A program made the position numbers and the translations under genes. A DNA stretch of 47,837 bases from Bacteroidales bacterium (GTDB lineage: Bacteria > Bacteroidota > Bacteroidia > Bacteroidales > NBLH01), in contig JAFGWC010000080.1 in assembly GCA_016937695.1 (NCBI GenBank), positions 1-47,837 on the forward strand, in the 5' to 3' direction. Under the pieces are notes generated by a model that had not been told where the DNA came from, ran no database searches, and worked only from the letters and a program-made list of their open reading frames with translations. Positions 5,635 to 42,853 of this stretch are shown piece by piece. Within the stretch, counting starts at the first letter, position 1. Every line of letters starts with the position of its first letter.

Positions 5635-6498
5635 GTGGAAACTTCAGAATTATTAAAAAAAGTAAGAAAAGTCGAAATAAAAACTCGAGGTTTATCTAAG
5701 CATATTTTTGCTGGCGAATATCATAGTGCTTTTAAAGGACGTGGTATGGCATTTAGTGAAGTTCGGGAATATCAATATGGAGACGATGTAAGAAATATTG
5801 ACTGGAATGTTACTGCACGTTTTAATCATCCATATATTAAAGTTTTTGAGGAAGAAAGAGAACTTACTGTAATGCTTTTAGTCGATTTAAGCGATTCTAA
5901 AGAATTTGGAAGCAAAACAAGATTGAAAAGAGAAACTATAACTGAATTATCAGCTGTTTTGTCTTTTTCTGCTATTCAAAATAATGATAAAATCGGTGTT
6001 ATATTCTTTAGTGATAAAATTGAAAAATATATTCCGCCCAAAAAAGGTCGTAAACATATTTTAAGAATAATCAGAGAACTTATTGATTTAAGACCTGAAA
6101 ATAAAGGAACTAATATTGCTGAAGCACTTAGATATTTAAATAATATTCAAAAGAAAAGAACAACTGCATTTATTATTTCTGATTTTATTGATCAAGGTTT
6201 TTCAGATGCATTAAAAATTGCAAATCATAAGCATGATCTTATTGCATTACAGGTTTATGATAAAAGAGATACTGAATTACCAAATGTGGGTTTAATCAAA
6301 TTACGTGACGCTGAAACTGATAAATTTATGTGGATTGATACATCTAATAAAAAAATAAGAGATAAATACAGAAATACTTGGATAGAAGCTGAAAAACAAA
6401 TAGTTGAAATTTTCAACAAAACAGGTGTCGATAATGCTAAAATTAGAACCGATGAAGATTATGTTAAGCCATTATTAAAACTTTTTAAACAGAGGTAA
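5635..6498 (+). CDS. DUF58 domain protein of the bat cluster
   Basis: DUF58 proteins carry a VWA-like fold and accompany MoxR ATPases. The start is a GTG; METSELLKKVRKVEIKTR is the usual N-terminus of this family, and no ATG is available upstream before the stop of the previous gene 10 bases away. The signature RGMAFSEVREYQYGDDVRNIDWN, then ARFNHPYIKVFEEERE and LLVDLSDS (an MIDAS-like Asp-x-Ser-x-Ser variant, here DLSDS) are clear. The length of 287 is normal. No membrane segment is seen, so it is probably cytosolic or peripheral. It probably works with the upstream MoxR ATPase. Confidence 0.93.
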   Translation: METSELLKKVRKVEIKTRGLSKHIFAGEYHSAFKGRGMAFSEVREYQYGDDVRNIDWNVTARFNHPYIKVFEEERELTVMLLVDLSDSKEFGSKTRLKRETITELSAVLSFSAIQNNDKIGVIFFSDKIEKYIPPKKGRKHILRIIRELIDLRPENKGTNIAEALRYLNNIQKKRTTAFIISDFIDQGFSDALKIANHKHDLIALQVYDKRDTELPNVGLIKLRDAETDKFMWIDTSNKKIRDKYRNTWIEAEKQIVEIFNKTGVDNAKIRTDEDYVKPLLKLFKQR

Positions 6499-6506
6499 AG
6501 ATAAAG

Positions 6507-7535
6507 ATGAGAGGATTTTTAAAAATATTTTGTATTGGTTTTTGTGTTATTTTTTTCCTTTTAATCAATAATAACATAAATGCTCAAGAAGTAAGTGCCA
6601 AATTAGATACTTTTCAAATAGAAATTGGCGATCAGGTTTATTTATATCTGTCTGTAAGTCAGGATGATAATGAAATTGTTAAATTTCCCGATTTAAAAGA
6701 TAATATAATTGATGGAGTTGAAATAATTTCAAAATCTACAATTGATACAAATAAACTTGCTAATGGAAAATTAAATTTGAAACAAAGCTTATTAATTACT
6801 TCATTTGAAGATAGTTTGTATTTTATTCCGCCTTTCCCATTTATATCAGGAAAAGATACATTATATACTAATTCATTAAGTTTTGATGTACTTATGATGC
6901 GTATTGATTCTGCTACTGTTTCTAAAATAGACACTAATCAGATCTTAAGAATCTTTGATGTTAAAGAGCCAATAAAAACACCTTTTACTTTTGAAGAATT
7001 TTTAAAAAACTATTATTTGTATATGATAGGAATTTTAGCTTTAGCATTAATTACGTTTCTAATTTGGTATTATATAAAGAAAAAAAGAGAGAATAAACCA
7101 TTAATTGAGATTAAAAAACCACAAGAACCTGCTCATATTATTGCTTTAAGAAAATTAGGAAATCTTAAAGAGAAAAAATTATGGCAATCTGGTAAAGAAA
7201 AGGCTTATTATTCTGAACTTACTGATATAATAAGAGAATATATTAAAAACAGATTTAATATCCACACATTTGAAAAGACTAGCTATCAATTATTAGAAAA
7301 CATAAAGATTTCAAAAATCGTTGATAATGAGAGATATAATGAATTATCAAATCTTTTAAACTTATCAGATTTAGCGAAATTTGCTAAGTACAAACCTTTG
7401 CCGGATGAAAATGATTTAAGCATGAAAAATGCAATCATTTTTATAAAAGAAACATTAGTTGAAAAAAAAGAAGTTAAAAATGATGATGAAAATTCTAATG
7501 TTATTGAGAATATTGAAAATAATATTCAAAATTAA
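6507..7535 (+). CDS. DUF4381-like membrane protein of the bat cluster
   Basis: A 342-residue envelope protein: N-terminal signal sequence (about residues 1-26, ending NINA), an extracytoplasmic beta-rich region to about 170, a single transmembrane helix (YLYMIGILALALITFLIWYYI, about 171-190), and a cytosolic helical tail. The tail contains the stretch AYYSELTDIIREYIKNRFNI, resembling the DUF4381 and BatD C-terminal regions in which TDIIR-Y-..RF is recurrent. Its layout therefore mirrors BatD on a smaller scale. It begins 8 bases after the DUF58 stop, and such a gene between DUF58 and BatA is common in Bacteroidota. Role unknown; probably a membrane partner of the VWA proteins. The last 30 residues are Asn/Glu-rich and look disordered. 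Confidence 0.8.
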   Translation: MRGFLKIFCIGFCVIFFLLINNNINAQEVSAKLDTFQIEIGDQVYLYLSVSQDDNEIVKFPDLKDNIIDGVEIISKSTIDTNKLANGKLNLKQSLLITSFEDSLYFIPPFPFISGKDTLYTNSLSFDVLMMRIDSATVSKIDTNQILRIFDVKEPIKTPFTFEEFLKNYYLYMIGILALALITFLIWYYIKKKRENKPLIEIKKPQEPAHIIALRKLGNLKEKKLWQSGKEKAYYSELTDIIREYIKNRFNIHTFEKTSYQLLENIKISKIVDNERYNELSNLLNLSDLAKFAKYKPLPDENDLSMKNAIIFIKETLVEKKEVKNDDENSNVIENIENNIQN

Positions 7536-7571
7536 AATCTTTCGGGTAATATTTTAATTAAGTATTTAAAA

Positions 7572-8564
7572 ATGAGAAATATAGTATTTGCAAATCCGGA
7601 ATTTTTTTATGGATTTTTAATTATAATTCCAATTATTGTTTGGTATATAATAAAAGATAAAAAGAGCCATGCTTCAATACAAATTTCTAGTTTAAGAGCT
7701 TTTGATAAAGTTCCTAAAACTTATAAATTTTATTTGAGACATTTATTATTTGCTTTTAGAATTATTATAATTGCTCTGCTAATAACTATTTTGGCAAAAC
7801 CACAAACTACAAATAATTGGGAAGATAAAATTGCAGAAGGAATTGATATTGTAATTGCACTTGATGTGTCAAGTAGTATGTTGGCAAGAGATTTTACTCC
7901 AAATAGGCTAGAAGCTTCAAAAGATGTTGCAGTAGAATTTATATCCGGCAGAGAAAATGATAGAATAGGTTTAGTTATTTTTAGTGGCGAAAGCTTTACT
8001 CAATGTCCTTTAACTACAGATCATACAGTTTTAATTAATTTGTTTAATGATATTAAACAAGGAATGATTGAGGATGGAACTGCTATTGGAATGGGACTTG
8101 CAAATAGTGTAAATAGATTAAAGCAAAGTGAAGCTATTAGTAAAGTTATTATTTTGCTTACTGATGGAGTTAATAATATGGGCGCAATTGACCCAATTAC
8201 AGCTGCACAAATAGCAGATAAATTTGGAATCAGAGTTTACACAGTAGGAGTTGGAAGAAATGGTTATGCGCCTTATCCTGTGCAAACAATGTTTGGAATT
8301 CAATACCAAAATATGGAGGTTAAAATAGATGAAGAAACTCTTAAAAAAATTGCTGAAATAACTGATGGTGAGTATTTTAGAGCAACTAATAATAAAAAAT
8401 TGAAACAAATTTATAAAGAAATTGATAAGCTTGAAAAATCAAAAATCGAAGTGAAAAAATATAGTAGCAAGAATGAAGAATATTTACCTTTTGCTATTGT
8501 TGTTGCTGTTTTATTATTATTTGAAATTATTGTTAAAAATACAATTTTAAGAAGTATACCTTAA
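7572..8564 (+). CDS. batA: BatA, VWA-domain membrane protein
   Basis: Aerotolerance-cluster protein with a von Willebrand A domain facing the periplasm between membrane helices. The N-terminus has FANPEFFYGFLIIIPIIVW (first helix), a second hydrophobic helix at about 57-75, and a third at the C-terminus (FAIVVAVLLLFEIIV). The VWA MIDAS motif DVSSS is at residues 98-102, followed by MLARDFTPNRLEASK, then GLVIFSGESFTQCPLT and the TAIGMGLANSVNRL block with the MIDAS threonine. Length 330 is standard. It is followed by its paralogue BatB, with the two differing mainly in the C-terminal half. Confidence 0.95.
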   Translation: MRNIVFANPEFFYGFLIIIPIIVWYIIKDKKSHASIQISSLRAFDKVPKTYKFYLRHLLFAFRIIIIALLITILAKPQTTNNWEDKIAEGIDIVIALDVSSSMLARDFTPNRLEASKDVAVEFISGRENDRIGLVIFSGESFTQCPLTTDHTVLINLFNDIKQGMIEDGTAIGMGLANSVNRLKQSEAISKVIILLTDGVNNMGAIDPITAAQIADKFGIRVYTVGVGRNGYAPYPVQTMFGIQYQNMEVKIDEETLKKIAEITDGEYFRATNNKKLKQIYKEIDKLEKSKIEVKKYSSKNEEYLPFAIVVAVLLLFEIIVKNTILRSIP

Positions 8565-8627
8565 TTAATTTATTATTTGTTATTTATTATTTATAAAAAT
8601 TTTCAGTTTGTAATTTTATAAAGTATT

Positions 8628-9656
8628 ATGTTTAATTTAGCTAATCCTCAATATTTATACGCATTTGCATTAATTCCTATACTTATTGTAATTTATATTA
8701 TTACAAAAAGAATAAGAAAAAAGCAAATTGAAATTTTTGGCGAAGAAGAGATTTTATCAAAAGTAATGCCTTTAGTTTCAACAAGAAGGCCAAATTTAAA
8801 ATTTATATTATTAATTATTGCTCTTTCTTTAGTTATTTTTTCTATTTCCAGACCACAATTTGGCTCAAAGCTTAAAGAAGTTAAAACAGAAGGTGTTGAA
8901 ATTATTATTGCTCTTGATGTTTCAAATAGCATGCTTGCGCAAGATATTAAACCAAATAGATTAGAAAAAGCTAAAAGGTCAATATCTAAATTATTAGATA
9001 ATCTTCATAACGATAAAATTGGCTTGATAGTGTTTGCAGGTAAAGCATATACACAAGTTCCTATAACAACAGACTATTCTGCTACAAAAATGTTTTTATC
9101 TTCTATAAATACAGATTTTATTCCCGTACAAGGAACTGCTATTGGTGAAGCTATTAGGTTGGGAATCAAGTCTTTTGGTCCTGAAAACGAAAGTAAAAAA
9201 GTTCTAATAATTATTACTGATGGCGAAAATCATGAAGATAATCCTTTACAAGCTGCTGTTGAAGCAAAAGAAAAAGGAATTTTAGTTTATACAATTGGAA
9301 TGGGAGATAATAGAGGAGTTCCAATTCCTATTGTTGGAAGCTCTGATTACAGAAAAGATAATAATAACAATGTGATTATCACAAAACTAAATGAAAATAT
9401 GCTAATTGATATTGCCAATGCTGGAGGTGGAATTTACATCAGAGCTAATAATTTTAGAACTGGCTTATCTAAACTCTATGATGAAATAGAAAAATTAGAT
9501 AAAACAGAACTTGAAGCATATGTTTATTCAGATTATGAAGATGTTTTTCAATATATTATATTTTTAGCTTTGATGATTATTTTATTCGATTTCTTGATTC
9601 TTGAAAGGAAAAACAGAAAACTTGAAAAACTAAAATTATTTAATTTAAGATTATAA
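8628..9656 (+). CDS. batB: BatB, VWA-domain membrane protein
   Basis: Paralogue of BatA with the same topology: N-terminal helix (FNLANPQYLYAFALIPILI), second helix at about 58-75, VWA domain, and a C-terminal helix (YIIFLALMIILFDFLIL). The MIDAS motif DVSNS is at residues 97-101, then MLAQDIKPNRLEKAK and GLIVFAGKAYTQVPITTD, and the TAIGEAIRLG block. In other Bacteroidota BatA and BatB form large membrane complexes. The 64-base gap to batA is made of repeated TTATT units and contains no promoter that I can defend. Confidence 0.95.
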   Translation: MFNLANPQYLYAFALIPILIVIYIITKRIRKKQIEIFGEEEILSKVMPLVSTRRPNLKFILLIIALSLVIFSISRPQFGSKLKEVKTEGVEIIIALDVSNSMLAQDIKPNRLEKAKRSISKLLDNLHNDKIGLIVFAGKAYTQVPITTDYSATKMFLSSINTDFIPVQGTAIGEAIRLGIKSFGPENESKKVLIIITDGENHEDNPLQAAVEAKEKGILVYTIGMGDNRGVPIPIVGSSDYRKDNNNNVIITKLNENMLIDIANAGGGIYIRANNFRTGLSKLYDEIEKLDKTELEAYVYSDYEDVFQYIIFLALMIILFDFLILERKNRKLEKLKLFNLRL

Positions 9657-9743
9657 TTTTGATAGAAGAGATTTTAAAAACAGAATTTATATATTCTTAA
9701 ATGCCTTATATTGTTATAATAAAAGATAAAAGTAAAAAAAATT

Positions 9744-10739
9744 ATGAATAAGATTATATTATTAATATTTACATTACTTATCGGATTAAATTCATTTTCT
9801 CAAAAGGAAAGAAAGTATATAAGAGAAGGAAATGAGGAATATATATCAAAAAATTATGATAATTCTGAACTTGCTTATGAAAAAGCTTTAGCGAAAAATC
9901 CTAAATCTTTTGAAGCAAAATTTAATCTTGGCGATGCTTTTTACAAACAAAAAAAATATAAAGCAGCTATTGATGAATATAACTCGCTTTTAAAAGATGA
10001 ATCTGATAAAATAAAATTATCTAAACTATATCATAATATTGGAAATTGTGAATTAAAGCAAACTGAAGAAATGCTTCAACAACAAAAATTGAATGACGCA
10101 ATAAAACAAATTGATAAAGGAATTAATTCGTATAAACAAGCTTTAAAAAATAATCCTAAAGATAGAGAAACAAAATATAATCTTGCTTATGCTCAGCAAG
10201 TTAAAAAGCAATTGGAAAACAAAAAAAATAAGCAAAATCAGCAAAACCAAAACGATAAAAACAAGGATAATAAAGACAATCAAAATCAAGATAATCAAAA
10301 TAATCAGGAAAATCAAGATAATCAAAATCAAAAAAGTGAGAACGATAGCGATGGAGATGGAATTCCTGATGATGTTGAAAAAGGCCAAGACAAAAATAAA
10401 CCAAGAGATACTGATAATGATGGCACGCCTGATCATCAAGATCAAGATTCTGATAACGATGGCAAATCCGATTCTGAAGAAGCAGGTAAAAACCCTGAAA
10501 AACCTCAAGATACTGATAAAGACGGAACTCCTGATTACAGAGATTTAGATTCAAATAACGATGGAAAACCTGATTCTGAAGAAAAAGCATCTGAAAATAA
10601 GCAGAATATAAATCAAATTTCTAAAGAAGATGCTATGAGATTGTTGGAAGCTATTGAAAACGATGATAAAAACGTACAAGATAAATTGAAAAAAATAAAA
10701 GCTAATGTTAAATCAGTTAAAACAGAAAAAGATTGGTAA
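9744..10739 (+). CDS. batC: BatC, TPR protein with inserted calcium-binding-type repeats
   Basis: Periplasmic TPR protein of the aerotolerance cluster. It has a signal peptide (residues 1-20, ending NSFSQ) and TPR units at about 21-155 (AKFNLGDAFYKQKKYKAAI and ETKYNLAYA are typical). A Lys/Asn/Gln/Asp-rich disordered linker covers about 158-200. Residues 201-280 then contain five Asp-rich units of thrombospondin-type-3 form (DSDGDGIPDDVE, DTDNDGTPD, DSDNDGKSDSEE, DTDKDGTPD, DSNNDGKPDSEE), a calcium-binding pattern well known from OmpA-type surface proteins but not a usual part of BatC. The C-terminus returns to the BatC pattern (ISKEDAMRLLEAIENDDKNVQDKLKK). The reverse strand and other frames are open through the low-complexity part; these are not genes. 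Confidence 0.92.
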   Translation: MNKIILLIFTLLIGLNSFSQKERKYIREGNEEYISKNYDNSELAYEKALAKNPKSFEAKFNLGDAFYKQKKYKAAIDEYNSLLKDESDKIKLSKLYHNIGNCELKQTEEMLQQQKLNDAIKQIDKGINSYKQALKNNPKDRETKYNLAYAQQVKKQLENKKNKQNQQNQNDKNKDNKDNQNQDNQNNQENQDNQNQKSENDSDGDGIPDDVEKGQDKNKPRDTDNDGTPDHQDQDSDNDGKSDSEEAGKNPEKPQDTDKDGTPDYRDLDSNNDGKPDSEEKASENKQNINQISKEDAMRLLEAIENDDKNVQDKLKKIKANVKSVKTEKDW

Positions 10740-10832
10740 AATTTAGTAATTTGTTTATTAGTAATTTGTAATTAGCATGGAAAGAGAGCTATTCAGGATA
10801 TAAATCTAGAAGGGCTATAAAAAAATAGAAAT

Positions 10833-12629
10833 ATGAAAAAGTATATAACTTTAATATTATTGTTGATTTTTGCTTTTAATCAAGTTTTTGCTCAGGTTTC
10901 TTTTAAAGCTTCTGCAAATAAAGTTGTTGAAATGGGCGAAAATTTTAGACTTAGCTTTGCCGTAAATGCAAATGGTGCAGGATTTAAACCTCCTTCTATT
11001 AACGATTTTACTGTATTAGCAGGACCTAGCACTTCAACAAGTTCTAGTTTTCAGTATATAAATGGTACCACTAGCCAAACTCTTACTGTTTCATATAATT
11101 ATATAATTCAGGCTACAAAAACAGGTAAATTTACTATTGATAAAGCTGAAATTACTGTTGATGGAAATAAATATTTCACCGAACCAATTGTTATTGAGGT
11201 AATTAAAGGCGGAACTTCAAATACAAATAATAATATTGAAGCTTCTACACCAAGTGTTTCTGATGAAAACGATGATATTTTTGTCAGAATTAATTTGAAT
11301 AAATCTACTGTTTATCAAGGCGAACAGTTAATTGCAAACATAAAAGTATATGACAGAATGGGTTTAAAATCTTTGACAGATTATAAATTTCCCTCATATA
11401 CTGGTTTTTGGACTCAAGACATTGAATCGCCCGGAAATATTTCATTGCAAAGAGAAAATGTTAATGGCAAATTATATCAAACAGGATTATTAAAACAAAC
11501 AATACTTTTTCCTCAACGATCTGGTAATCTTATAATTACACCTTTTGAACTTGAATGTATTGTGCAAAAAAAAGCCGGAAAAAGACGGAACTTTTTTGGT
11601 GATTATGTTGATACTTACGTTGATATTAACAAAAAAATGAAAAGTTCTGCCAGAAGCGTAAAAGTTCTTCCGCTTCCTGAAAATAAACCAGCTTCTTTTA
11701 ACGGTGCTGTTGGTGAAAATTTTAGTATTTCTGCTATTGTTGACAGAGATAATATTAAATCTAACGAAAGTATTACTTTGAAAGTTAAAATTTCTGGTTC
11801 TGGTAATATTAAATTGATTGATGAAATAACTGTAAATTTTCCTAATACTTTTGAAGTTTTTGATCCTAAAATTAATAATAATATAGAAAATTCTTTAGCA
11901 GGCTCGAAAGGAAGTAAAACTTTTGAATATTTGTTAATCCCTAGAGAACAAGGTGAATATACAATTCCTCAGATTAGTTTTAGTTATTTTGATATTATTT
12001 CTAAATCATATAAAACGCTTAATACCAAAGAGTTAAAAATAAATGTTGAAAAAGGAAATCTGATTAATACAGCAAACAATAATTTAACTGTTTCTAAAGA
12101 AGATGTTCAATCAATTGGAACTGACATCAGACATATAGAATTAGATGATTTTGATTTAAAAGAGATTAACTATAACTTTTTTGGAAGTATTGAATTTTAT
12201 CTTTTTTATATAATTTCTATTTTACTTTTTGCAATATCTATTCTGATTTTAAGAAGAAGATTGAAGTTTAATTCAAATATTGCACTTCAAAAAAATAAAT
12301 ATGCCAATAAAGTATCAAAAAAACACTTAAAAACCGCCAATTCATTTTTAAAACTAAATGATAAAGAAAAATTCTACAATGAAGTTATAAAGGCTCTTTG
12401 GGGATATTTAAGTGATAAATTAAATATTCCTGTTTCAGAATTATCGCGTGATAATGTTAAAGAAACTTTAATAAAATATAAAGTCAACGAAGATGTAATT
12501 TTTGATTTTATTTCTGTAATTGATAGTTGCGAATTTGCTAAATATTCTCCTGCCTCTGAAAATAATGGCTTAACAGAAGACTATGAAAAAGCTAGTAAAG
12601 TAATAAATAAAATGGCTCAATTAATTTAA
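10833..12629 (+). CDS. batD: BatD, large extracytoplasmic membrane protein
   Basis: A 598-residue protein with a signal peptide (to about residue 21, VFAQ), a long beta-sandwich periplasmic region (ASANKVVEMGENFRLSF, the FTVLAGPSTSTSSSFQYING block, and VRINLNKSTVYQGEQLIANIKVYDR are BatD hallmarks), one transmembrane helix near residue 455-473 (YLFYIISILLFAISILILRRR) and a cytosolic helical tail with VIKALWGYLSDKLNIPVSELSRDNV. The tail resembles the DUF4381-like tail of the gene at 6507. It follows batC by 93 bases and precedes batE, the standard order. It probably scaffolds the BatA/BatB VWA complex on the outside of the inner membrane. Confidence 0.95.
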   Translation: MKKYITLILLLIFAFNQVFAQVSFKASANKVVEMGENFRLSFAVNANGAGFKPPSINDFTVLAGPSTSTSSSFQYINGTTSQTLTVSYNYIIQATKTGKFTIDKAEITVDGNKYFTEPIVIEVIKGGTSNTNNNIEASTPSVSDENDDIFVRINLNKSTVYQGEQLIANIKVYDRMGLKSLTDYKFPSYTGFWTQDIESPGNISLQRENVNGKLYQTGLLKQTILFPQRSGNLIITPFELECIVQKKAGKRRNFFGDYVDTYVDINKKMKSSARSVKVLPLPENKPASFNGAVGENFSISAIVDRDNIKSNESITLKVKISGSGNIKLIDEITVNFPNTFEVFDPKINNNIENSLAGSKGSKTFEYLLIPREQGEYTIPQISFSYFDIISKSYKTLNTKELKINVEKGNLINTANNNLTVSKEDVQSIGTDIRHIELDDFDLKEINYNFFGSIEFYLFYIISILLFAISILILRRRLKFNSNIALQKNKYANKVSKKHLKTANSFLKLNDKEKFYNEVIKALWGYLSDKLNIPVSELSRDNVKETLIKYKVNEDVIFDFISVIDSCEFAKYSPASENNGLTEDYEKASKVINKMAQLI

Positions 12630-12715
12630 GCTGTTTTGAGTTTAATAAAACTAACTCTTAATATTGAAAATGAACAATTATTAACTGTAAATTGTTAATT
12701 GTAAACAAACTGAAA

Positions 12716-13501
12716 ATGAAAAATTTATCTTATAGAATTAAAATAATTACTTTATCGATTCTGTTCATATCTTTAAATGCATCTTTTACTTTTTCGCAAG
12801 CTGATTCTTTGTACAAAGTTATTAAGCTTGCAAATGATGCTTATAATAAATCTGAATTTGAAAAAGCTTTAGATTATTATAAAATTGTTATTAATCAGGG
12901 TTTTACATCATCAGAATTATATTATAATATTGGCAATTCATACTATCGTTTAAAAGATTATAAAAATGCTATTCTTTTTTATGAAAAAGCAAAACTACTA
13001 GAGCCTGATAATGAAGATATTACAACAAATCTTGAACATAGTTATAGATTCATTCAAGACAAAATTGACGACATTCCTGAAATCTTTTTTTTAAGATGGA
13101 TTGATGGTTTTGCAAGCATGTTTTCAACAAAAATTTGGAGTTGGATAAGTATAGTAAGTTTTATTCTGTTTTTATTGTCGGGTTTAATTTTTCTTTTCTC
13201 ACCTAAAGTAGTTTTTCGTAAATTATCTTTTTATTTCTTATTTATACTAATTTCAATTTCCATATTAAGTTATTTTAATGCTTATCATCAAAATAATAAA
13301 TACAATAAACATAAAACTGCAATAGTTTTTAGTTCTTCAGTTAGTGTTAAAAGCTCACCAAATATAAATGGTACAGATTTGTTTATTATTCATGAAGGTT
13401 TAAAAGTTACAATTATAGATATATTAGATAATTGGTGCGAAATAAAACTTAGCGATGGAAGAGTTGGCTGGTTGCATAAAGATACTATTGAAGAAATTTA
13501 A
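12716..13501 (+). CDS. batE: BatE, TPR and SH3-like protein
   Basis: Last gene of the aerotolerance cluster. I start it at the ATG at 12716 (MKNLSYRIKIITLSILFISL); a TTG eight codons upstream would spoil the signal peptide. Order: signal sequence to about residue 28 (TFSQ), two TPR units (ELYYNIGNSYYRLKDYKNAILFYEKA), a pair of membrane helices around 138-190 (WSWISIVSFILFLLSGLIFLF and FYFLFILISISILSYF), and a C-terminal bacterial SH3 domain (VFSSSVSVKSSPNINGTDLFIIHEG then WCEIKLSDGRVGWLHKDTIEEI). SH3b domains of this kind often bind peptidoglycan or peptides. Full length; no promoter of its own is visible. Confidence 0.92.
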   Translation: MKNLSYRIKIITLSILFISLNASFTFSQADSLYKVIKLANDAYNKSEFEKALDYYKIVINQGFTSSELYYNIGNSYYRLKDYKNAILFYEKAKLLEPDNEDITTNLEHSYRFIQDKIDDIPEIFFLRWIDGFASMFSTKIWSWISIVSFILFLLSGLIFLFSPKVVFRKLSFYFLFILISISILSYFNAYHQNNKYNKHKTAIVFSSSVSVKSSPNINGTDLFIIHEGLKVTIIDILDNWCEIKLSDGRVGWLHKDTIEEI

Positions 13502-14664: not shown

Positions 14665-15858
14665 TTACAATTTTGCAATAATTGCATCCGCCATTTCTTT
14701 TGTAGATGCTGCTCCATTATTTACAACATCAGCTTTTCCACGCATTTTTTTCATGTCATAAGTTCTGACTTTTCCTTCTTCAATTACAGCTGCAATAGCA
14801 ATTCTGATTTTTTTAGCAATTGACTTTTCATCTATAAAATCTAACATCATACAAGCTGATTCTATCATTGCAATTGGATTTACAATTGAAGTTTCATAAT
14901 CGGCATATTTTGGAGCTGAACCATGTGTTGGTTCAAAAACAGCTATGCCTTCTTTCGACCATTGTGCGCTACAAGCAAAACCCAAACCACCAATTAAACC
15001 TGCAAATCCGTCAGAAACTATATCGCCAAACATATTTCCGGCAACTATAACTCCGTAATCTTCAGGGTTTTTAGTCAGCCACATCATTTGTGCATCAATG
15101 TTTGTGTTCCAAAGTTCAATATTCGGATAATCATTTTTTTGCATTTCTAAAGCCATTTTATACATCATCCCTGATGTTTCACGAATTACATTCGGTTTTT
15201 CGCAAAGTGTTACTGATTTATATCCGTATTTTTTTGCATGTTCAAATGCTTCTTTTAAAATGTTATAAGTTCTTTCTTTTGTGAAAATTCTGGTTGAAAT
15301 TGAAACTTCTTCTTTTGGAGTTTTTCCAAAATTCAGTTTAAATTTAGGATGAGTCATAAATGCATCATATACTTTTTCGCTTGGATTTGACCACTCAACT
15401 CCGCCATATAAACCTTCAGTGTTTTGTCTGAAAATTACAACATCTACTAATGGTTCTTCTACTTCATCTCCTTTTCCTCTTCTAATAAAATTTAAAGGAT
15501 TGCCTTTATAAGTTTTGCATGGACGAGCACAAATTTCAAGATTAAAATGTTGACGTAAACCAACAATTGGACTTGAATATACAAGACTTTTATCTTTAAG
15601 TTCGTCAGAAAGTTCATCAAATGCTTCATCCTTTGGTTTAGATGTTATTGCACCAAAAAGTCCGATTTTGTGTTTTTCAAGTAATTTAATTGTTCTTTCC
15701 GGAAGTGGATTTCCTTCTTTTTTCCAAAATTCCCACCCAATATCTCCTTCTACATAATCAGCTTCAAATCCTGATGCTTCAAGCACTCTTAAGGTTTCAT
15801 CAAGTACTGCTTTTCCAATACCATCACCAGGCATTGTAACTATTGTTCTTTTTGCCAT
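14665..15858 (-). CDS. icd: Isocitrate dehydrogenase, isocitrate/isopropylmalate dehydrogenase family
   Basis: Beta-decarboxylating dehydrogenase that probably oxidises isocitrate to 2-oxoglutarate in the TCA cycle. Family marks: TMPGDGIGKAVLDE at the N-terminus, VGLRQHFNLEICARPCKT with the substrate-phosphate arginines, RQNTEGLYGGVEW, CEKPNVIRETSGMM, and the metal-binding GNMFGDIVSDGFAGLIGGLG. The coenzyme loop reads HGSAPKYADYE; Lys-Tyr after AP is as in NADP-dependent E. coli Icd, not the Asp-Ile of NAD enzymes, so NADP use is likely. The substrate-recognition Ser-x-Asn is here SSPIV, without the Asn, so a related 2-hydroxyacid cannot be excluded. A second, unrelated isocitrate dehydrogenase lies 8.3 kb downstream. 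Length 397 is normal. Confidence 0.88.
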   Translation of the reverse strand: MAKRTIVTMPGDGIGKAVLDETLRVLEASGFEADYVEGDIGWEFWKKEGNPLPERTIKLLEKHKIGLFGAITSKPKDEAFDELSDELKDKSLVYSSPIVGLRQHFNLEICARPCKTYKGNPLNFIRRGKGDEVEEPLVDVVIFRQNTEGLYGGVEWSNPSEKVYDAFMTHPKFKLNFGKTPKEEVSISTRIFTKERTYNILKEAFEHAKKYGYKSVTLCEKPNVIRETSGMMYKMALEMQKNDYPNIELWNTNIDAQMMWLTKNPEDYGVIVAGNMFGDIVSDGFAGLIGGLGFACSAQWSKEGIAVFEPTHGSAPKYADYETSIVNPIAMIESACMMLDFIDEKSIAKKIRIAIAAVIEEGKVRTYDMKKMRGKADVVNNGAASTKEMADAIIAKL

Positions 15859-17856: not shown

Positions 17857-18024
17857 TATATTTTGCTTCTATACTTATTTGTAATTTTAATATATAGTAA
17901 TCTAAAAATTAAATTTAAATGATATATTTAAGTATACATTTTTGTTATTAAACAGTATGAAATATTTTGGTATAGAATTTGATTGATTACAAAATGTAAA
18001 TAATTATGTAAAAACAAATTTGCA

Positions 18025-19080
18025 ATGAAGAAAAAAAGCTATAGTTTTCCAAGTGTTTTTGAAGCAACAGGAATGCAATTAAATTCAGTATCTAATGATT
18101 TATTAAACGGAATAGAAATTTATGATACTGATAATCAGGCATATATAGTTGGTAATTTAGCATTAACTGAAGGCTCTTCTCCTCATAAAGCGATTAACAG
18201 TTCGCCAAGAGAATTAGATTATAATTTATTTCTAAAAGCTGGTATATTACTAGCTACAAACATGAACAACAGACCTTTAACTGTTACTACAGGTTTTCCC
18301 TTTTCCACATATCAAATTTATAAAGATATCGCTAAGGAAACCATAAAAAACTTAGAAAATATAGATTATAATCCAAAAACTTTCTCTGAAGAAGACAGAA
18401 CTAGAATAAAAACAAATATTCAAAATGTTGAAATTCTTCCTGAAATGATTGGTAATATTATTGCCTTAAGAGTTGGTGAACATACAAAAGAAGGCAATTT
18501 TTTTGTTGTTAGTTTGGGTTATGGAACTTGCGAGGCCGTATTAAGTACTGAAAGTGGTATTGTTCATAGAACTTCGGTTAGTATAAATGGAATGCAATAT
18601 GCTGTTGAAATGCTTATGCGAGCCTTATCTACAAAATATTATTTGGGATTTAAAACTGAAAAACATATTGATATGTTATTCAGGAATGATTATATAATTC
18701 TTGACAGAAAACGTATAAATATAGTTGATGTTAGAAAGGCTGTTTTACATAGATATTACAAAGAAGTTGTTTCGCCTGTATTAAGAAAATCATTTAGAGA
18801 TGCTGACTTTGAAATTGCAAATAGAATATATTTAACTGGCGGTGGTGCATTATTTCCCGAATTAGTTCAGGCTTTTGATGATGAATTTAACGATATTGCT
18901 AGTGTTGAAGTAGTTTCTAATCCTTTAACATTAACTAGTGAAGGATATAGCTTTAATTCTATTATGCTTGCTGGAGGTGATAAATCAACAGCTATAGGTC
19001 TAGATATCGGAAATGCAAACACTGTTTTAACTCAATATGAAAATGAAGCGGTTAAAGATTTTGAACCTACTTTTTCATAA
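18025..19080 (+). CDS. ParM/MreB-like actin-fold ATPase, apparently circularly permuted
   Basis: Predicted filament-forming or ATP-switch protein of the bacterial actin family, 351 residues, cytosolic. Seen directly: no phosphate-1 loop at the N-terminus, which begins SYSFPSVFEATG, the strand that normally follows that loop. Then come VTTGFPFSTYQIYKD and VEILPEMIGNIIAL, typical of ParM/Ta0583-type proteins, phosphate-2 at 161-172 (VVSLGYGTCEAV, Ser replacing the usual Asp), and the adenosine motif IYLTGGGALFPEL at 268-280. The phosphate-1 motif AIGLDIGNANTVL is at 323-335, followed by a hairpin and EPTFS at the end, strikingly like the MreB N-terminus (GIDLGTANTLV...EPS). A stop at 18001 in frame and no other start exclude a longer N-terminus. 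No ParR-like partner lies nearby; function unknown. Confidence 0.85.
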   Translation: MKKKSYSFPSVFEATGMQLNSVSNDLLNGIEIYDTDNQAYIVGNLALTEGSSPHKAINSSPRELDYNLFLKAGILLATNMNNRPLTVTTGFPFSTYQIYKDIAKETIKNLENIDYNPKTFSEEDRTRIKTNIQNVEILPEMIGNIIALRVGEHTKEGNFFVVSLGYGTCEAVLSTESGIVHRTSVSINGMQYAVEMLMRALSTKYYLGFKTEKHIDMLFRNDYIILDRKRINIVDVRKAVLHRYYKEVVSPVLRKSFRDADFEIANRIYLTGGGALFPELVQAFDDEFNDIASVEVVSNPLTLTSEGYSFNSIMLAGGDKSTAIGLDIGNANTVLTQYENEAVKDFEPTFS

Positions 19081-19119: not shown

Positions 19120-19148
19120 AGCTGTCTGATTTTCAGGCAGCTTTTTTT
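19120..19148 (+). terminator. Intrinsic terminator after the actin-like gene
   Basis: AGCTGTCTGA and TCAGGCAGCT pair (one U-G) around a TTT loop and are followed by a run of seven T. It isolates the actin-like gene from the next gene. Confidence 0.85.
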
Positions 19149-24039: not shown

Positions 24040-26373
<2,334 letters not shown>

Positions 26374-41054: not shown

Positions 41055-41927
41055 ATGAAAATTGTAATATTATCAAGAAATGCTAAGTTGTATTCAACCA
41101 GAAGGTTATGTGAAGCAGCAAAAGAAAAAGGACATGATACAATGGTTGTAGATCATTTAAAATGCATTATAGAAATTGAGAAGAAGAAACCAAAAATTTA
41201 TTACAATGGTGCTTATTTAGATGATATTGATGCTATTATACCAAGAATAGGTGCTTCCGTTACATTTTACGGAACTGCTGTTGTTCGTCAGTTTGAAATG
41301 ATGAAAGTGTTTTCAGCTGTGGAATCGCAAGCCTTAATAAGATCTAGAGACAAACTAAGAAGTTTACAAGTGCTATCAAGAGCTGGAGTTGGATTACCAA
41401 AAACTGTATTTACAAATTATACTAAAAATGTTGAACATGTTATAGAATCTGTTGGTGGTGCACCTTTGGTGTTAAAACTTTTGGAAGGAACTCAGGGATT
41501 GGGTGTTGTTTTAGCAGAAACTCAAAATGCTGCAACTTCAGTAATTGAAGCTTTTAACGGATTAAAAGCCAGAGTAATAGCTCAACAATTTATTAAAGAA
41601 TCAGCTGGTGCTGATATTAGAGCTTTTATTGTTGATGGAGTTGTGGTTGGTGCGATGAAACGACAAGGGAAAGAAGGCGAATTTCGTTCTAATTTACACA
41701 GAGGTGGCACAGCTTCATTTATAGAGTTAACAGATGAAGAAGAAAATACAGCTTTAAAAGCTGCAAGAGCGATGGGACTTGGTGTTGCAGGAGTTGATAT
41801 GTTGCAGTCATTAAATGGTCCTTTAGTCTTAGAAGTAAATTCTTCTCCAGGTTTGGAAGGTATTGAGGCTGCAACTAAGAAAGATATCGCAAAAGAAATA
41901 ATAAAATATATTGAAAGAAATGTCTAG
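41055..41927 (+). CDS. rimK: RimK, ATP-grasp glutamate ligase (ribosomal protein S6 modification)
   Basis: I start at the ATG at 41055 ([18 protein letters not shown]), the standard RimK N-terminus; the frame could begin four codons earlier only at a TTG. ATP-grasp landmarks are all present: [42 protein letters not shown] (nucleotide-binding loop), [36 protein letters not shown] and the metal-binding [15 protein letters not shown]. RimK adds glutamates to the C-terminus of bS6 in other bacteria. The bS6 at 1311 has a Glu/Lys-rich tail that could be its substrate. Length 290 is normal. It forms a pair with the protease gene upstream. Confidence 0.95.
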
Positions 41928-42055
41928 ATTTCATATAAGTCTTGAAGAAATTTTAAAATTTAGCTTTTTTAACTTTTAATAATAAATTTTCATTATAAAA
42001 TTAAATATGTTTGTTAAATATTATAAAAATATATTAATACTAAAAAACAAACAAC

Positions 42056-42853
42056 TTGAATCCAAAAAGAAATTTTATTTTAATTTTTACTCTTACTTTA
42101 TTTTCTTCAATTTCATTATTCTCTCAGCAAAATATTAATAATCAGACTGTTGATAGTGCTATTTTAAAATTTAAAGGTCAGTTAATTGATGATGAAGGAA
42201 ATTTTATTTCTTTTGCCCATATTGTAAATTTTAAAAGAGATTATGCTACTATTAGTGATTCTCTAGGAAAATTCAGAATGCCGGTTATTATAAATGATTC
42301 TATTAGAATTTCGGCAATTGGCTTTGAAACTAAATTTATTTCTATAAAAAAACAAAATATAATAAACGACAGTATTAATTTAAAAATTGTATTTAGAAGA
42401 AAGACTTATAATATTTCAGAAGTAAATATTTATCAATTGCGTTGGCTAGTTTTTAAAGCAGAATTTATGGCTGAAAAAGTGATTGAAGATAAAGTTACAA
42501 CCAGATTAACTGAATGGTTAAAGAATTTGATTCCTGCAAGTGAATTGCTTATGATGGACAAAGCTGTTAGAGGCTCGTCTTTACAATTTAACTATATGAC
42601 TAAACGAGAAAAACAAAAGGAAAAAGTAGCTTATTTAGTAAAAAAATATAGAATTATTCAACCTAAATTTAATGACAAGCTTATTCAAGATGTTACAGGA
42701 CTTTCAGGTACAGATATTTACAAGTTTATAAATTATTGTAATTTTAGAGAAGGTTTTTTGCTAAATGCATCGGAATACCAAATTATTGACAAAATTCAAA
42801 ACTGCTGGAAAGAATACAAAATAATTATGGCTGATGATATAAATAAATTATAA
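42056..42853 (+). CDS. Secreted protein with CarboxypepD_reg-like domain
   Basis: The only start that keeps the signal peptide is the TTG at 42056 (MNPKRNFILIFTLTLFSSISLFSQ): an in-frame stop lies at 42041 and there is no ATG between. After the signal, residues about 38-115 form the seven-stranded domain of TonB-dependent-receptor and carboxypeptidase regulatory type: KGQLIDDEGNFISFAHIVN, TISDSLGKFRM, DSIRISAIGFETKFI and the INLKIVF strand. A helical part follows (about 120-265) with RWLVFKAEFMAEKVIED and FREGFLLNASEYQII. Similar two-part proteins are common in Bacteroidota; the function is unknown. It is convergent with the next gene. Confidence 0.82.
   Translation: MNPKRNFILIFTLTLFSSISLFSQQNINNQTVDSAILKFKGQLIDDEGNFISFAHIVNFKRDYATISDSLGKFRMPVIINDSIRISAIGFETKFISIKKQNIINDSINLKIVFRRKTYNISEVNIYQLRWLVFKAEFMAEKVIEDKVTTRLTEWLKNLIPASELLMMDKAVRGSSLQFNYMTKREKQKEKVAYLVKKYRIIQPKFNDKLIQDVTGLSGTDIYKFINYCNFREGFLLNASEYQIIDKIQNCWKEYKIIMADDINKL

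Follow-up and report, generated by a model that had tools for sequence, protein, structure and literature searches.

Among proteins of known structure, one of the closest matches to the protein described here is Dh-cParM1 (PDB 8x1i), a chromosomal protein with an actin fold that was the top VIA match to our structure model (Z 26.1, rmsd 3.1, 302 residues). A ParR partner has been described for Dh-cParM1 and other chromosome-encoded ParMs, in a paper whose main text does not contain the words 'permut', 'bacteroid' or 'bactofilin' (PMC12270681). The phosphate-1 (P1) motif of Dh-cParM1 lies in front, as residue 2 of our protein aligns to its residue 23; P1 is also N-terminal in Ta0583, in which chain residue 18 aligns to model residue 1. 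MreB shares the fold (VIA Z 20.9), and an envelope role is plausible for MreB and for our protein alike, but our protein scores below the cut-off of the Pfam family MreB_Mbl (24.1 vs. 27 bits), and a true MreB coexists with it in the same genome, as in 18 of the 18 other genomes checked. Two described bactofilin systems are also relevant. In the BacA–LmdC module (eLife RP86577, PMC10945521), a bactofilin gene and an M23 peptidase gene stand side by side. A few of the loci below share this arrangement but differ by adding an actin-like gene and a bactofilin that ends in tryptophan; such an actin is unmentioned in the available sections of that paper. In the BacNOP–PadC–ParA system of Myxococcus, the available text describes a bactofilin tail that recruits a nucleotide-driven protein, although through an adaptor and a ParA ATPase and not an actin (PMC5703909).

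The gene studied here lies on the forward strand at 18025–19080 of the window, the whole 47,837-nt stretch that we analyzed, which is one complete contig of a 3.95-Mb genome in 159 contigs. ORF reading gives 351 residues and a stop codon from an ATG start, and the gene is single copy in that genome. The chain begins with KKKSYSFPSVFEA (residues 2–14, 18028–18066; modeled strands E2–8 and E11–13), which the VIA alignment equates with the strand placed after the P1 hairpin in ordinary actins. It continues through Glu140 (18442–18444), which is aligned with the Glu of the MreB HEPMAA motif and invariant (34/34), to the phosphate-2 (P2) motif VVSLGYGTCEAV (residues 161–172, 18505–18540), which aligns with the genome's own MreB, and the adenosine motif IYLTGGGALFPEL (residues 268–280, 18826–18864), whose G272 and G273 are also invariant (34/34). 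A connector, IMLAGGDKST (residues 313–322, 18961–18990), then leads from the old C-terminal part to the P1 motif AIGLDIGNANTVL (residues 323–335, 18991–19029), and the chain closes with TQYENEAVKDFEPTFS (residues 336–351, 19030–19077), comprising the end of the second P1 strand and a tail modeled as disordered. All of these features are on the forward strand, as is a terminator-like hairpin with a T-run shortly 3′ of the gene (19120–19142); the region has two sites of this kind, where shuffled sequence gave a mean of 0.7. The ORF reading thus bore out the order P2–adenosine–P1 given in the initial annotation, as well as its argument against a hidden N-terminus: The frame is closed by a TAA on the same strand (18001–18003), seven codons 5′ of the ATG, so an N-terminal P1 is excluded in that frame.

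An actin fold is confidently predicted for the protein. Pfam ALP_N matched residues 4–143 to profile positions 17–148 of 148 (E = 4.7e-11) with 43.5 bits, above the gathering score of 26.3 bits that served as cut-off, and PHROG 691 ('partition protein') matched residues 5–308 to positions 25–318 of 329 (E = 3.2e-23, 83.4 bits). Pfam MreB-like_C (archaeal MreB-like, Ta0583) was a near miss, at 27.5 bits below its cut-off of 27.8 bits. The AlphaFold model, built with 34 sequences, has an actin fold (pLDDT 88.1, pTM 0.87) in which strands E323–328 and E333–339 form the P1 hairpin (block pLDDT 90 and 87); a second model, of the relative L093, has the same C-terminal hairpin and leaves its Trp-ended tail disordered. 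Besides Dh-cParM1, VIA matched the model to pCBH ParM (Z 25.9) and Ta0583 (Z 24.4), and the best Foldseek match was Ta0583 (2fsj, E = 3.9e-14). In the alignments to these three proteins and MreB, model residues from 1–2 to about 315–320 pair with chain residues from 18–28 on, in agreement with the earlier claim that the protein starts at the strand that follows the P1 hairpin. The sequential superposition omitted the P1 hairpin on both sides. A sequential aligner must do so if the chain is permuted, and the result therefore fits a permutation; it bears indirectly on the refuting condition named in the initial annotation, a C-terminal segment that fails to pack next to P2.

We then asked how widely the protein is distributed. 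It is present at 70%–73% identity in four of the six other genomes of the window's genus; the other two (G002 and G003, 82% and 87% complete) had no match, and a match in G027 in the genus scan (E = 9.6e-4) was taken as spurious and dropped. More distant lineages have 38%–56% identity to the window protein. Counting the window genome, a five-sequence profile found the protein in 22 of 393 genomes and 13 of 206 genera in a scan of the order, and a wider profile found it in 23 of 395 genomes and 12 of 171 genera in a scan of the phylum. A further scan of genome_contigs yielded 143 relatives, of which the best 80 were used to analyze loci; these 80 include Bacteroidales, Roseivirga, Cyclobacterium and kin, Mucilaginibacter, Daejeonella, Parapedobacter, Dysgonomonas mossii, Odoribacter, Balneolaceae, and Salinibacter altiplanensis. 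Scans with the window protein as a single sequence found no match in genome_contigs, no relative in phages, and only one weak canonical ParM (1e-3) in plasmids, and a profile scan of viral_contigs found no relative. A search of 247 genomes of the class with phrog_691 had matches in 246. Judging from frame length, most matches are other members of the wider actin/Hsp70 superfamily; among those listed, the window protein was by far the best (5.3e-24 vs. 4.5e-13). We rejected the possibility that this is a mobile-element gene, given that these scans found no viral relatives and that the neighbors are chromosomal (such as gyrase A, a Clp ATPase, and isocitrate dehydrogenase). The 129 full-length ORFs collapsed to 104 distinct proteins, including the window's own and excluding a broken copy in genome G036. 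That copy (L006/L028; G036:C131, about 41398–42467) is split by an in-frame TAG and a frameshift, and is either a decayed copy or an assembly error. The distribution is patchy yet wide, and every full-length member that we read is permuted.

P1 is C-terminal in all 104 distinct full-length proteins; a pattern placed it there in 102, and L105 and L129 were read by eye. An N-terminal P1 pattern occurs in none of the proteins (0/104). The order P1–P2–adenosine expected of the superfamily is accordingly absent, with P1 last throughout. The distance from the conserved Ser312 to the P1 motif is 10–31 residues in the 86 of 104 proteins where it was measurable. We rotated proteins in silico, placing the C-terminal P1 segment ahead of the rest of the chain, and rescored them; the profile score rose in nine out of nine comparisons. 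Against PHROG 691 (five out of five), scores went from 68.9 to 72.4, 62.7 to 67.2, 78 to 84.8, 83.4 to 89.8 (window), and 70.2 to 77.4 bits; against ALP_N (four out of four), they went from 39.3 to 42.8, 41.4 to 48.7, 53.5 to 62.2, and 43.5 to 47.8 (window) bits. The gains are uniform, though modest because P1 is short. Rotation also moved the start of the match, from profile position 25–52 to 4–5 for PHROG 691 and from 17–21 to 1 for ALP_N, indicating that the unmatched start of both profiles is the place of P1. Natural and rotated sequences scored equally in hhalign (67.5 vs. 67.4 against a four-sequence ParM profile, 36.8 vs. 36.8 against the genome's own MreB), with other rotation points likewise uninformative; the local alignment never reached P1, so these scores speak neither for nor against permutation. 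The position of the P1 hairpin did not emerge from a mean-field coupling analysis (104 rows, Neff 43.5). Taking together the position of P1 in the 104 proteins, the modeled fold, and the uniform gain on rotation, a natural circular permutation of the family, as first proposed from the window alone, is near certain. The conservation of the C-terminal P1 among homologs, which had been named as a check, is complete in these 104 proteins.

The initial annotation had left the role of the protein open. A partial lead comes from relatives in several orders, where a bactofilin gene accompanies the permuted actin, although in the window's own lineage the gene is unpaired. In 49 of 79 loci (from the best 80 of 143 relatives), the next downstream gene, on the same strand, encodes a bactofilin, as confirmed on samples by Pfam PF04519; with L091, a pair that our ORF script missed and that was added on a separate reading, the count is 50 of 80, leaving 30 of 80 unpaired. 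With starts chosen mechanically, 40 of the 49 actin–bactofilin gaps in this set are within −4 to +31 nt, and starts and stops often overlap or touch. Because many paired loci come from Roseivirga and Cyclobacterium, they do not count as independent cases. A tree was built from 81 of the 104 proteins, leaving out those with a first copy from the order sample (L002–L031) and scoring L091 as unpaired; on it the pair state changes at least eight times. Pairs occur in Cytophagales, Sphingobacteriales, Rhodothermales, and Balneolales, and within Bacteroidales in Dysgonomonas and Massilibacteroides. In the phylum sample, which shares species with the first (genome_contigs) locus set, 13 of 24 loci have their bactofilin partner within 450 bp, and in four more a bactofilin lies 1.0–1.2 kb downstream. 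Of the 28 locus rows in the order sample, some of which coincide in place, only three have a directly downstream bactofilin, all from genome G374. Of 18 other genomes that carry the permuted actin, 17 have at least one bactofilin match; the exception is G149, in which the permuted actin is present but bactofilin gave no match. Among the best 80 relatives, the arrangement bactofilin–actin–bactofilin is seen at L092, L094, L098, L104, and L106, and an M23-type gene is a neighbor in five of 79 loci (L060, L068, L069, L077, and L098; L060 and L098 checked with Pfam). The pairing in many relatives suggests an undescribed cytoskeletal partnership of actin and bactofilin. Our main explanation is that the protein is a permuted actin-like ATPase that in many relatives works with a bactofilin scaffold, probably in envelope morphogenesis, and we consider this reading likely.

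Several observations on individual loci are worth recording. Genome G374 has three cassettes of bactofilin, permuted actin, and Trp-ended bactofilin (L016, L029, and L031), and two of its actins appear identical to L092 and L106 of Dysgonomonas mossii. At L024, L026, and L027 a bactofilin-like frame instead lies upstream of the actin, with lengths of 476, 246, and 197 residues; that of L024 reaches 27.5 bits and so narrowly misses the Pfam cut-off of 27.9.

Paired bactofilins carry a distinctive C-terminus. All 48 complete downstream bactofilins at the loci of the best 80 of 143 relatives have a Trp within the last three residues, which is the last residue in 43 (the 49th is cut by a contig end), and the nine other bactofilins in the same loci have no Trp end. 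In 17 genomes that we read whole, with 30 bactofilins, a Trp end was found in eight out of eight directly downstream of the actin and in none of the 22 others. Among those 22 are three that lie immediately upstream of the actin and two located about 1.2 kb downstream of it (G617 and G736); three of the eight are from one genome and so lack independence. The reading of seven additional genomes, together with the bactofilin of the window genome, added no Trp end (0/8); two of those genomes repeat earlier-read ones by coordinates. The exceptions are L131 and L132, whose directly downstream bactofilins end in LLF or LIF. This pattern ties the tag to the actin system. In paired lineages, the permuted actin would then dock on the bactofilin scaffold through the C-terminal Trp peptide, as a polymer or a nucleotide switch, and may act there near cell-wall enzymes. 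At two loci without a paired bactofilin, L073 and L093, the actin's own linker ends in Trp (KFLKTGMW and KFLISGTW), and the single bactofilin match of each of these genomes lacks a Trp end, so the tail might bind something other than actin. The Trp peptide, on the bactofilin or on these two actins, could accordingly be an anchor to the membrane or to a third partner, with the two proteins acting side by side. We regard this reading as plausible, though less likely than not: The Trp end tracks the position directly downstream of the actin and not bactofilins generally.

The same pair of proteins can be read with the actin as something other than a filament former, and here the nucleotide site is informative. 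An Asp at the P2 position is usual in the actin-like superfamily and helps hold Mg in actins. In the window protein, Ser163 of VVSLGYGTCEAV occupies the position of this Asp in the genome's own MreB, and across the family the residue is Ser in 99, Gly in four, Asn in one, and Asp in none of 104 proteins (ten rows by eye). The P1 Asp is present in 104 of 104 (two by eye), and the MreB Glu to which Glu140 aligns has a catalytic role. The primary sequences thus combine a changed motif order conserved family-wide and a lost P2 Asp with a retained P1 Asp, Glu140, and Gly-Gly pair. Since Ser replaces the P2 Asp, hydrolysis of ATP is expected to be slow or altered, and we infer that the window protein binds ATP and would hydrolyze it in that manner. 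The loss of the P2 Asp in all 104 proteins, and the VIA Z of 20–21 for DnaK/Hsp70 structures against the window model, would suit a permuted protein that forms no filaments, either a soluble Hsp70-like ATP switch or a nucleotide sensor whose sole task is to regulate the assembly of bactofilin. The best structural matches are instead ParM-type proteins and Ta0583 (Z 24–26), and the P1 Asp and Glu140 are conserved, leaving such a protein plausible but less probable than an actin-like ATPase working with a bactofilin scaffold.

There is also a larger proposal, which we offer tentatively and at somewhat less than even confidence: Bacteroidota and relatives may have a hitherto undescribed composite cytoskeleton in which a permuted actin, polymerizing or switching with ATP and tethered by a C-terminal Trp tag to nucleotide-free bactofilin filaments, steers local remodeling of the cell wall. 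As in our main explanation, its actin component is a chromosomal protein with a predicted actin fold, nearest in structure to Dh-cParM1, pCBH ParM, and Ta0583. The circularly permuted chain of that protein begins at the strand that follows the P1 hairpin in ordinary actins and carries the hairpin on a short connector behind the old C-terminal part. If true, permutation frees new chain ends, making new filament contacts possible. The genetic tie to bactofilin would join two cytoskeletons that are usually studied apart, and Bacteroidota would gain a module testable in cultured organisms. A permuted family this widespread is a test of which connections along the chain are required by the ancient actin fold and by its polymers. 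Among the literature matches listed (titles and abstract openings, with subscription papers and bioRxiv mostly outside this scope), none reports a natural circular permutation of the actin fold, and none reports an actin or ParM with a bactofilin; earlier work on either may exist.

A role in DNA segregation appears unlikely. The protein would then be a chromosomal ParM-type segregation protein for which bactofilin serves as a positioning scaffold, in the way that bactofilins hold ParA in Myxococcus (PMC5703909), with an unseen DNA adaptor; the PHROG 691 'partition protein' match and the top VIA match to Dh-cParM1 both point in this direction. Within five genes of the actin, however, no neighbor except bactofilin is shared by more than 15 of 79 loci (best 80 of 143 relatives), and the scans described above found no relative in phages or viral contigs and the one weak canonical ParM in plasmids. 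A misassembly, fusion, or frameshift artefact of one genome, which the initial annotation had named as grounds for abandoning its proposal and which the broken G036 copy might seem to favor, is refuted and can be set aside as wildly improbable, as the 104 distinct intact proteins, none with an N-terminal P1, come from many assemblies, including Roseivirga thermotolerans CGMCC 1.15111 and Cyclobacterium jeungdonense KCTC 23150.

The window's own lineage departs from the paired arrangement. No bactofilin gene lies directly downstream of the permuted actin at the window locus, and the sole bactofilin match in the genome (G000:C78; L175:6249–6686, minus strand) is on another contig, near ATP-synthase genes, and has no Trp end, so the partnership does not hold there as such. 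The protein ends in EPTFS, which the initial annotation had read as a second copy of the FPS strand left by a tandem duplication. We rejected this reading. Among the relatives aligned, the motif is seen only in the window's genus, as [FY]xPxFS, and relatives outside the genus end in unrelated letters. In the congener L004/L033 the motif ends a charged tail of 130 residues, and in the model of the window protein residues 343–351 are disordered (pLDDT <50). EPTFS is therefore better described as a brief motif at the end of a variable-length linker than as a second FPS strand. Long tails also occur in the L073 and L093 actins (99 and 101 residues), and the other 99 proteins measured end six to 23 residues after the 10-letter P1 motif. 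The protein of the window's lineage is an orphan in which the permuted order is intact and which has its own terminal motif; with the Trp-ended bactofilin missing, this tail may dock instead.

Finally, we noted other genes on the same contig. DUF58/VWA, BatD, and TPR genes at 5635–13501 look like what we take to be a Bat (aerotolerance-type) operon. A 397-residue frame at 14665–15858 reads by eye like an isocitrate-dehydrogenase-type enzyme, and a monomeric isocitrate dehydrogenase (PF03971) is encoded at 24073–26373.
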